DNA of 64,000 nt from an uncultured Synergistales bacterium (GTDB lineage Bacteria; Synergistota; Synergistia; Synergistales; Aminobacteriaceae): positions 62,001 through 126,000 of the forward strand of contig CAJOGI010000005.1 in NCBI GenBank assembly GCA_905234075.1, written 5' to 3'. The notes beneath the pieces were generated by a model, which saw only the letters and a list, made by a program, of their open reading frames with translations, was not told the DNA's origin and made no database searches. Positions 59,066-64,000 of the stretch are shown here, piece by piece (position 1 is the stretch's first letter; every line of letters begins with the position of its first letter). The translations under genes and the position numbers were made by a program.

Positions 59066-59141
59066 TAAGAATTAGGAAGTGGAAAACAAAAAAACTCCTA
59101 CTTCCTAACTCCTAATTCCTACCTGTTCCTAACTCCTACTT
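59066..59141. repeat. Inverted heptamer arrays between leuS and mazG
   Basis: GAATTAGGAAGT (59070-59081) faces a reverse block of TCCTAAC/TCCTACT units (59095-59141). The leuS stop codon (TAG) is itself part of a unit. Confidence 0.75.
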
Positions 59142-61625
59142 CACGACAATATTAACAAGTTTATTAGGAACGGAAATGACTTTTACAATTTCTTTGTCTG
59201 CTATTTTTTCAATCATGAAGGGCTCGGACAAAATACTCTTCTCGAGTTCTTCTTTTGACATTCCGGCAGGACGCTCGAATTTTCCGCGAACTTTGCCGTT
59301 AATCTGTCCGACTACCGTAACGCTGTCGAGCGTCATTGCTTTTTTATCGGCGGCAGGCCAAGCCTCAAGGCAGAGCATTTTTTCATTGCCTAACATTTCC
59401 CAGAGTTCCTCAGTAATATGAGGGCAGAAAGGCGACAGGCAGTTTAATAACGTGTTGACGGCCTCGCGCTTTAATTCCCACGCCTCCGGGCTTGCGTCAT
59501 TGAGCGAATAAATCGCGTTCGTTAGCTCCATTAAACGGGCTATCGCGGTGTTAAATTGCTTCTCGTCAAAAATATCATGCGTAACGCTGTCAACAGTCGT
59601 GTGAATTTTTCGCTTGAAATCACGTAAAGCCGGAGCTTTTATTTCGTCCATTGAAATAATTTTATTTCCGTAGGCTTTCAGATTTTCGCAGTTCTCTTCA
59701 ACATAACGCCAGACTCTGTTCAAAAATCTGTGCGCACCCTCGACGTTTCTGTCAGACCACTCTAAATCATTATTAGGCGGAGCGGCGAACAAAATAAATA
59801 ACCTCACCGTGTCCGCGCCGTACTTCTTTACGATTTCAGTCGGATCTACGGTGTTGCCGAGCGACTTTGACATTTTCGCGCCGTCCTTGATTACCATTCC
59901 TTGAGTTAATAATCTCGTGAAAGGCTCGCGGTATTCAGTGAGGCCGATGTCAGTTAAGAACTTCGCAAAAAATCTCGCGTAAATTAAATGCAGGCAGGCA
60001 TGTTCAATTCCGCCTATATATTGATCGACCGGCATCCAGTAATCTACGTCGGACTTCTCAAACGGTCTCTTATCATCGCCGGGCGAGCAGTATCTGTCGA
60101 AATACCATGACGAGCAGAAGAACGTGTCCATAGTGTCAGCCTCGCGCACGGCCGGGCCTCCGCAGTGAGGGCATGTCGTGTTCAAAAAGTCCGGGCGGTC
60201 TAATAACGGCGAGTGCCCGACCTCTTTAACCTCAACGTCTTCAGGAAGCCTCACGGGCAAATCTTCTTCAGGGACGGGGACGACTCCGCACTTGTCGCAA
60301 TAAACGAACGGGATAGGCGTTCCCCAGTATCTTTGACGCGAGATTAACCAGTCTCGTAATTTGAAATTAACTTCGCGCTTGCAGATGCCTTTTGCTTCTC
60401 CCCAGTCGATCATTTTTTTGATTGCTTCGGAGGTTTTCATGCCGTCAAATTCGCCGGAGTTGCAGGCTATGCCGTCCTCAGTGAAGGCTTCTTTCATTGT
60501 CGCGCCGTCAAGTTTTTCGCCGTTCTCTGGATTTATAACGGGGATAATCGGAATATTATATTTTCTGCAAAAATCAAAGTCGCGTGTGTCGTGAGCAGGG
60601 ACTCCCATAATCGCTCCCGTGCCGTAGTCAATTAAAATGTAATTCGCTATCCAGATAGGAATTTTTTTGCCGTTCACGGGGTTAATTCCATAGAAGGGAG
60701 TTTTGAAACCTAACTTTTCCGCTTTTGCGTCGGAGCGTTCAATCGAACTTTGAGAGCTGACTTTTTTAATAAACTCGTCTAATTTTTCCGCGTCTTCTCT
60801 GCTCATTGCCGTATGCATTTTTTTAACGAGTTCATGCTCAGGAGCAAGCGCGATGAAAGTTACGCCGTAAATCGTATCAAAGCGCGTTGTGAATGCTTCA
60901 AGCTCGTAATCAAGTTCGGGAAGTTTGAAAGAAAGTTTTGCGCCCTCGCTGCGTCCGATCCAGTTCGTCTGCATTATCCTGACTCTTTCGGGCCAGCCGC
61001 CTAAATCTTTTTCAATGTCGTCTAATAATTCCTGCGCGTAGTCCGTGATTTTTATAAACCACTGCTTGAGATTTTTTTTCGTTACGGGATTCTTGCAACG
61101 CCAGCAGCAGCCCTCTTCTACCTGCTCATTAGCCAAGACCGTTCCGCAGTGTTCGCACCAGTTGACGGGGGCTTCCTTCTGAAAGACTATTCCCCTCTTA
61201 TACATCTGAAGGAATATCCACTGATTCCATTTATAATATTCGGGAAGGCAAGTTATAGCTTCGCGCTTCCAGTCGTAACTGTAGCCCATGCGCTTTAACT
61301 GCTCTGTCATGTAAGCAATATTCGAGAGCGTCCAGTCGTGAGGCTTCGTCTTATATTTAATTGCGGCGTTCTCCGCCGGCATACCGAACGAGTCGAAGCC
61401 GATAGTGTATAAAACATTTTTCCCGTTCTTTCTCAAAAAACGCGCAAGCACATCGCCTATCGAGTAGTTTCTGATATGGCCCATGTGTAAGGCTCCGCTT
61501 GGGTACGGGAACATTTCGAGGCAGAAAAATTTTTCTTTTGAAGGGTCGGTTTCAGCTTCAAAGCAATGAGACGCGCTCCAGCGTTCCTGCCATTTTTTTT
61601 CTATGCTGTCAAAATCATAAGGCAT
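59136..61625 (-). CDS. leuS: Leucyl-tRNA synthetase
   Basis: An 829-residue class I synthetase: [16 protein letters not shown] (HIGH motif) near 38-53, the CP1 editing domain with TRFDTIYG and the conserved Asp in [16 protein letters not shown], zinc cysteines near CPHCGGPA, and KMSKS ([10 protein letters not shown]) near 575. Of normal length. No T-box leader: a TATAAT on the minus strand at 61671-61666 leaves only ~35 nt of leader. Confidence 0.97.
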
Positions 61626-61695: not shown

Positions 61696-61728
61696 TGCTA
61701 AAATTTTTCCGCTGAAAAAACTTTCAGC
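61696..61728 (+). promoter_or_regulatory. Promoter and 5' hairpin of the surface-protein gene
   Basis: TGC-TAAAAT (61696-61704) is an extended -10 element. A 7-bp hairpin GCTGAAA/TTTCAGC (61711-61728) would form at the very 5' end of the mRNA, followed by AAAGGAGG before ATG 61762. Confidence 0.5.
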
Positions 61729-61761
61729 AAGTTAAAAATTTTGATTAAAGGAGGTTTTTTC

Positions 61762-64000
61762 ATGACACATAAAAATCTTCTCAAACTTTCATTATTTTTC
61801 ATGTGCATGAGTTTTTTTTTAATCTTGAGGGGGGTACAGCCCTAGCCGCAAATTGGTACGTTGTATCTGACGGCGATGCTGCTCCGACTACAGTCAAATA
61901 TTCTTCAACAAGTTGGACTGCGGCGGATACCGGCACCACAGCAACCGACCTCAATACATTTTTGAACAGCAGTACTGTTGCAAGCGGCGACACTGTTTAC
62001 ATCAAAGCAGGCGAATACAAATTATCAGCGCAAATCGATTTAACTTCTAAAGTTCTTCACCTTTACGGCGGATTTGCAGGCACTGAAACAACTTCATCAG
62101 ACCGCGATTTGGACACGAACAGAACAACACTTAACGCTAATGCAGATGCAACCAATAAACGCAGTGTTCTCTACATAAGAACCAACTCAACGATTGACGG
62201 CTTCACGATAAAGGGCGGCTCCAACGACTACGGCGGCGGCATTTACATTAGCGGCAACCCGACAATTACAAACTGCACCATTGCGGGCAATACTGCTAAC
62301 GGCTACAATGACGGCAGCGGCAACGGCGGGGGCATTCACATTAACGGCGGCAAACCGACAATTACCAACTGCGCCATTGTGGGCAATACTCTTAGAGGCA
62401 GCGGCGGCGGCGGCGGCGGCATTTCTATTAGGAATGGCGGCACCGCGACAATCGCGACAATTACAAACTGCACCATTACAGGCAATACTGCTAACGGCTA
62501 CTATGGCGGCGGCGGCATTTGTATTAGGGATAGGGGCACCACCGCGACAATCATCAACTGCACTATTACAGGCAATACTGCTGACGGCAACAATGGCGGC
62601 GGCGGCGGCATTTGTATTAAGGATAGCGGCACCGCGACAATCATCAACTGCACCATTGTGAATAATACAATAAATAGTGTTGGACACGAAATTTATTTTG
62701 ATAACAATACAATAACCCTCTACAATACGCTGATATGGAATGCGGAAACAGAGAAAGCTATTAAGTTGCCTGACAATTCCACTATAACCCATTATTGTGC
62801 GTATCCCGGTGCGACAGGCGATAATAATATTGTCTTCGATACGTGGGAAAATCCCGTCTCGTCCGATGTAACAGTCAAGGGCGTTACACATAATGTGTAT
62901 AAAATTTCTGATAATTCCAGTGCGTTACAAGGCATTATCGGTAATGGCAGTCATGATGTAGCACCATCGTTTGACCAAGTCGGCAACGCTTTCGCAAATC
63001 CCCCGATAATCGGCGCGGTTGAGTATGTTCTTCCTGTTTTGAGCGTTGACATATCGGGCGACATTGAAATTAGCGCAACATACGGCACAGCAAAGACATC
63101 AACATTTGCCACGACTGTAAGCCTAAGCCCTGATAACAAGGCTTTAACAACGGGCTACACAGTTTCGTGGGACGTTACGGTCAGTACTGATGTTTCAGGA
63201 ATTTCAATCGACCAAAGCGGAGATTTAACTGTCGGAAGCGCGACACCCATCGGAACTTATGAAGCTACAGTGAAAGCTCAGGCGACATATGGCGCAGCAA
63301 AATCAAACGTTGCAGAGAAAACTGTTACTATAACCGTTGAAAGCGGCGATATTACTTTAACTTTGACATCAAAAGATTTGCCCGGCGGAAAAGTCGGCAC
63401 GGTATATTCTGAAGATCAATATTTCACGGCAACGGTTGAGCCCTCGTCAGCAGATATTTCTTGGGATGTCAGCGGACTGCCCGAAGGCTTGAGTTTTGAC
63501 AAAGGCAAGATTTCAGGAACGCCGACAGCGAGCGGAGATTTCAGCGTTAAAGTTACGGTAACGGCGACGCTTGCAAATTACAACACTGTATCAAAAGACA
63601 TCACGGCTTCAATAACGATTGCGGCGGCTGATGGCGGTAGCGGCGATAGTGATGGCGGATCAGGCGGCAGCGGCGGTAGTACTGATGACGGCAAAACGAT
63701 AACGGTTCCCTCAAGCGGAATTAGCGGTCTCACTGATACGCAAAAGAAGACAGTAGAAACTTTAATCTTGAACAGCGTTAATGATCTATCGCAAATCACA
63801 GCAACGGACTTCCCGAACTTAACGAGCGTGAAAATTTCTTCAGATGTTGACGTCGGCAACGGCGGCGTGCTTGATTTAAGCTCATTGCCTGCAACCATTA
63901 CGACCTTCTCAATTTCGGGCAACAGCACTGTGAAAAGTTTGAACTTGAAAGCAAGCAAGGTCGCCAACATTGACGCAAGCGGCTGCTTTGAATTAAAGAG
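61762..64000 (+). CDS. Beta-helix/LRR surface protein, out of frame at T9/G6 (probably phase-variable), 3' end beyond window
   Basis: ATG 61762 after AAAGGAGG opens a signal peptide (MTHKNLLKLSLFFMCMSFF), but the frame stops at TAG 61843. From 61845 to the window end another frame stays open for 718 codons without any Met. One extra base in T9 (61812-61820) or G6 (61829-61834) joins the two and gives a signal peptide ending GGTALA before ANWYV. The mature part has five ~30-residue Pmp-like beta-helix repeats (GGGI.I...TITNCTI.GN, about 62230-62660), Ig/He_PIG-like domains (LPEGLSFDKGKISGTP), a Gly/Ser linker, and BspA-like leucine-rich repeats to the edge. A large adhesin or autotransporter-like protein. 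Confidence 0.8.
61812..61834 (+). repeat. Homopolymer runs T9 and G6 in signal-peptide codons
   Basis: T9 (61812-61820) and G6 (61829-61834) lie 14 bp apart in the only stretch where the start and the mature-protein frames disagree. Gain of one base, or loss of two, restores the frame. Confidence 0.75.
62230..62660 (+). repeat. Five in-frame beta-helix repeats with GGC microsatellites
   Basis: Units of about 85-100 bp encode GGGI-x-I ... TITNCTI-x-GNTA. Their junctions are GGC runs (up to six GGC codons at 62404-62421), which are prone to in-frame expansion and contraction. Confidence 0.8.

Follow-up and report, generated by a model that had tools for sequence, protein, structure and literature searches.

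The locus described here raises the question of why a gene with an intact promoter element, a ribosome-binding site and a signal sequence cannot be read into its own mature part, which is completely open. Is such a gene broken, has it been read incorrectly, or is it a switchable gene caught in its OFF state? The gene is located at the end of the window, by which we mean the whole stretch of DNA analysed (64,000 nucleotides, bases 62001-126000 of contig 5). The window was taken from the draft genome (G000; 1.84 Mb, 18 contigs) of an uncultured Synergistales bacterium. The following features are relevant:

59136 to 61625, minus strand: leuS, divergent neighbour of the gene (ORF list); the same arrangement is present in the congener G007
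61696 to 61704, plus strand: extended -10 promoter element TGCTAAAAT, which does not vary among the seven copies compared (leader alignment)
61747 to 61754, plus strand: Shine-Dalgarno sequence AAAGGAGG (sequence), with an AAGGAGG equivalent in all copies (leader alignment)
61762 to 61845, plus strand: signal-peptide leader frame of 27 codons, beginning with ATG and ending in TAG, not in frame with the mature protein (sequence and alignment)
61812 to 61820, plus strand: T9 run (sequence), T7-T9 in the other copies
61827 to 61834, plus strand: G-A-G6 run, shorter and interrupted, where the relatives have their pure G8-G13 tract
61836 to 64000, plus strand: mature frame with ALA/AN cleavage motif, beta helix and He_PIG domain, leaving the contig 31 bases beyond the window

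Reading starts on the plus strand with the ATG at 61762-61764, gives the leader MTHKNLLKLSLFFMCMSFFLILRGVQP and terminates at the TAG at 61843-61845. The mature frame (...TALA/ANWYVV, from about 61836) differs from this start frame and contains no stop over 2.15 kb. It is open to the end of the window and for a further 31 bases to the end of the contig, and since it is still open there, the gene must have its 3' end outside the contig. Both the T9 run and the G6 run (61829-61834, directly preceded by G-A at 61827-61828) are located between the leader frame and the mature frame. The window copy is OFF in the assembled consensus. Thus, what the initial annotation had described (a ribosome-binding site, an ATG and a leader cut by a TAG, followed by an offset open frame of 2.1 kb, with homopolymer runs in the switch region) is present in the sequence, and its statement that the gene is switched off holds as the consensus state. 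On the minus strand, two open frames (62187-62891 and 63578-64000) overlie the repetitive Gly/Asn/Thr-rich part of the gene, and these are most likely a by-product of the coding strand.

By themselves the two runs are unremarkable, since in the 64-kb window both are below expectation (6 observed vs 7.9 expected for G6; 4 matches, some of them overlapping, vs 20.7 expected for T9). What is remarkable on comparison is where these runs sit, together with the long poly-G of the relatives at the same site.

The product of the window gene matched the right-handed beta helix PF13229 (47.5 bits) and the Ig-like He_PIG domain PF05345 (30.9 bits), both above the Pfam gathering score. Complete relatives also carry leucine-rich repeats, their C-terminal part being LRR-like, and they end in a hydrophobic and basic tail that contains Cys. 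This tail resembles Synerg-CTERM without passing the model. The sole match to TIGR04564 was obtained for L040 (14.0 bits, cut-off 22.5 bits), and the C-terminus of the window gene is missing. No Pfam match to a C-terminal autotransporter beta barrel was detected in the complete relatives L036, L040 and L041, and a match by sequence to a solved structure was not obtained. The window gene probably belongs to a small family of paralogs in this ruminant Synergistaceae genus that encode beta-helix/Ig/LRR proteins, and these proteins are presumably expressed, exported and located at the surface.

When we searched 43 genomes of the genus, we found close copies of the window gene in two other genomes, Synergistaceae RGIG3568 from goat rumen (G007) and RGIG3217 from goat reticulum (G017). 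Seven copies have a readable leader: the window gene, L036 and L038 of G007, and L039-L042 of G017. L036 is divergent to leuS like the window gene and is therefore its positional ortholog. From the promoter element through Shine-Dalgarno sequence and leader to the beginning of the mature part, all seven can be aligned. At the exact site of the window G6, each of the six relatives carries a pure poly-G tract (G8-G13), which is uninterrupted in contrast to the G-A-G6 of the window copy; the T/G runs of these relatives are T8/G12, T7/G9, T7/G11, T7/G13, T9/G8 and T7/G11. Start frame and mature frame differ in every copy; four copies have an offset of 2 from ATG to mature frame, and three have an offset of 1. 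None of the seven copies is in frame (ON). With random drift of tract length one third of them should be ON, and the chance of this outcome would then be about 0.06, so that the excess of OFF copies is no more than suggestive. All seven copies are MAG consensus sequences from different species with one genome per species, and as each copy is a single consensus, the differences in tract length are differences between species and paralogs.

A search with the leader DNA across the genus yielded only already known copies above noise, and a second family copy in G000, sought as the cause of the contig break, was not found. The motif of a T run plus G8 was present in only two of the 43 genomes (G007, G017), where it occurs solely at homologs of the window gene. 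A viral-contig match to the T-G motif (L281) was rejected as a chance match in an unrelated phage. The 3' part of the window gene (L006, 3333-4032) is closer to an incomplete G007 copy (L037, 768-1797; 82-85%) than to the ortholog L036 (81-82%), and this hints at recombination between family members.

None of the copies carries a stop in its mature frame. A dN/dS ratio of about 0.43 was calculated for the window gene and L036, and values of 0.35-0.69 were obtained for other pairs, which indicates that the mature frames are under purifying selection. Of 201 columns in which the other copies are unanimous, the window copy differs in 11, and this rate is among the lowest of the seven. The lack of stops, the dN/dS below 1 and the small number of unusual residues argue that the window gene is not an old pseudogene, a view that the initial annotation had already taken.

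The pure G8-G13 tracts, the mixed offsets and the intact mature frames fit slipped-strand phase variation, and the same comparative evidence speaks against an isolated assembly error, against an old pseudogene and against programmed frameshifting of fixed direction. We therefore assign a probability of roughly 80% to the reading that the window gene belongs to a surface-protein family switched by poly-G slippage and is OFF in the consensus; that the family as such is phase-variable is very probable. Mechanistically, every family gene would have a poly-G tract within its signal-peptide codons, and replication slippage would alter the length of this tract by single bases. Each length change would join or split the mature frame and the start codon with its signal sequence. 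Each paralog would thereby be made or unmade per cell line, and selection would favour variable display. Reversible slippage within a species, the surface location and selection for variable display are what we infer from the sequence comparison.

As to the criteria for SSR phase variation, the window gene and its six homologs all have the tract placed where a length change shifts the frame. Tract length varies among paralogs and orthologs (G8, G9, G11, G11, G12, G13), and the frame beyond the tract is maintained by selection, with no stops and the dN/dS to the ortholog given above. A hypermutable length (G/C of at least 7 or A/T of at least 10) is reached by the six relatives with G8-G13, whereas G6 and T9 of the window copy fall below it. 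The same cut-offs, G≥7 for G/C and T≥10 for A/T, have been used for Campylobacter (PMC6321876). In C. jejuni, poly-G tracts have switching rates of about 1e-3 per division or higher (PMC4965091; PMC8437040), with 2-3e-2 for one reporter, and engineered interruption of such a tract abolishes detectable switching (PMC8437040). Since the window tract is both short and interrupted, this copy probably switches slowly at present and may even be locked OFF; that it still switches at a useful rate, via G6 or T9, is somewhat doubtful. Thus, for the family as a whole the phase variation proposed initially has strong support (six of seven copies with pure G8-G13, mixed offsets, intact frames, poly-G throughout the genus), but the tract of the window copy itself is below the cut-offs. 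Likewise, of the two runs suggested as the switch, the poly-G site can be retained as the switch of the family; the T run cannot, and the window run is reduced to G-A-G6.

An alternative that deserves serious attention, although the odds are against it, is that the window gene is a recent pseudogene. According to this explanation the copy is a permanently locked-OFF relic, in which the G tract was shortened and acquired a G-to-A change while OFF, so that switching was lost. The interrupted tract, which is shorter than in every relative, is in line with this, and so is the failure to find a second family copy in G000. Moreover, this genome has the fewest long G runs in the genus (two vs up to 59), as if the system had been reduced in the lineage. 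However, the mature frame is stop-free over its 2.15 kb, with few unusual residues and a dN/dS clearly below 1, and promoter, Shine-Dalgarno sequence and leader are intact. Any locking of the window copy must therefore be recent.

It is unlikely that programmed ribosomal frameshifting or RNA polymerase slippage on the T/G run allows expression of the OFF copies at a set fraction. That seven of seven copies are out of frame would be compatible with such a mechanism, and T7-T9 and G8-G13 may be slippery for RNA polymerase, too; polymerase slippage on poly-A/T has been discussed (PMC3711429). However, the required shift varies among the copies and tract length is not conserved. Since offsets of both kinds occur, no fixed programmed shift serves all copies, and this variant was rejected. 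RNA polymerase slippage could leak in addition to phase switching.

An error of homopolymer assembly or sequencing, the real gene being in frame, is more improbable still. It is true that there is one consensus only and that a one-base length error in either run would suffice. However, long uninterrupted ORFs, leuS included, cover 91% of the 64-kb window, which is thus without general sign of indel errors, and six homologs from two other assemblies have the frame break at the same place with differing lengths. Finally, the GTG at 61803 shares its frame with the mature region and as an internal start would make the upstream leader irrelevant, but this reading is hardly credible and was rejected, since the codon lacks a ribosome-binding site and would remove the signal sequence, other copies (e.g. 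L039, L041, L042) have a stop between the equivalent place and the mature region, and the upstream Shine-Dalgarno sequence, ATG and leader are conserved in all seven copies.

Poly-G slippage as the switch of the family, the reading we prefer, can be viewed against the tracts elsewhere in the genus. G000 contains only two runs of at least eight G, both of them G9. Runs of at least nine G were counted in all 43 genomes and ranged from 2 (G000, the fewest) to 59 (G021), and first- or second-order Markov composition gave an expectation of about 1-7 per genome, the higher values coming from stretches picked for containing tracts. Runs of exactly G10 amounted to about 4.9 per genome in the genus vs about 1.9 in the other genera of the family, as raw counts uncorrected for base composition. 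A promoter-spacer pattern (TTGAC-N-G7+-N-TAWWWT) gave 29 matches in the 43 genomes vs 0 for the reversed control. When 95 tracts were assigned automatically to the classes ON, OFF and promoter, the result was rough (33 of 95 without class) and was used as background only. From these data it seems reasonably likely that poly-G switching is genus-wide and reaches a Campylobacter-like scale, a genome having up to dozens of tracts in signal-peptide codons, in the interior of genes and in promoter spacers, and that the G000 lineage has almost entirely lost or frozen it.

Several individual tracts are of note. Nine of the 29 spacer matches fall into G042 (L248, L252, L254-L260), and their spacers of about 15-21 bases are as expected for length-switched promoters. 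One G9 of G000 (G000:C2:233189-233216, minus strand; L072, L244) is located inside a TTGACG-16-TAATAT spacer upstream of an exported-protein gene. Genes with signal peptides similar to that of the L072 gene are present in G007 (L098) and G017 (L115), also with G9 at 16-base spacing, the -10 element of L115 being weaker. The G9 at L072 is likely to be a promoter-spacer switch. The second G9 (G000:C2:100332-100340; L070) is located in the 3' end of a histidine-kinase/receiver gene, immediately ahead of another kinase gene, and G017 has a G8 at the same position (G017:C76:25680; L111). In both genomes the run may affect the C-terminus, or else how the two kinase genes are coupled. In G007, a G10 (G007:C61:34191; L108) breaks a gene that by eye resembles an N6-adenine DNA methylase, and if this gene is phase-variable, methylation of many sites could be switched. 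Upstream of a beta-helix homolog (L048/L013; G009:C91), about six CAGG repeats abut the start codon, with G11 further upstream; here a repeat of a second type lies close to the gene of a related surface protein. In G017, genes for a putative lipoprotein, a beta-helix protein and other products (L097, L112, L119, L122) are broken by G8-G10 with the remaining frame open, which makes them further candidates for switching.

Simple-repeat phase variation has mainly been studied in pathogens. In the open-access literature we found no title or abstract reporting homopolymer phase variation in Synergistetes or Synergistaceae, or simple-repeat phase variation in rumen genomes for this group. Poly-G switching across a gut-commensal genus of Synergistetes would point to variable surface display as a strategy of general use in crowded gut communities, perhaps directed against phages or host antibodies. 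For metagenome assemblies it would mean that gene callers misread poly-G switched genes as broken.

Among the known systems, Neisseria opa and Helicobacter hop genes use CTCTT or CT as the repeat, and their products are outer-membrane beta barrels. These genes share with the window family the repeat in signal-peptide codons and a multi-copy surface-protein family with individually switching copies, but here the repeat is poly-G and the beta-helix/Ig/LRR proteins have an unrelated architecture. Chlamydia pmp genes combine homopolymer switching with beta-helix-rich surface proteins and resemble the window family in both respects; unlike pmp, the complete relatives gave no match to an autotransporter barrel. 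Promoter-spacer switches of poly-G or poly-C are known for Neisseria porA and opc and for Bordetella fim, and the putative second tract class of the genus, between -35 and -10, with one representative in G000 and separate from the window gene, is of this kind. Another close counterpart are the poly-G contingency genes of Campylobacter jejuni and its relatives. Their pure G tracts, mostly of 8-12, occur in many genes per genome, mostly in reading frames, and one-base slippage turns surface-related products ON or OFF; tract lengths and numbers per genome are similar to those found here (PMC6321876; PMC4965091). The genus described here differs from Campylobacter in that it belongs to another phylum and to an uncultured rumen group, that many of its tracts lie in promoter spacers, too, and that its switching is putative. 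The mechanism is a known one, and the setting appears to be new.
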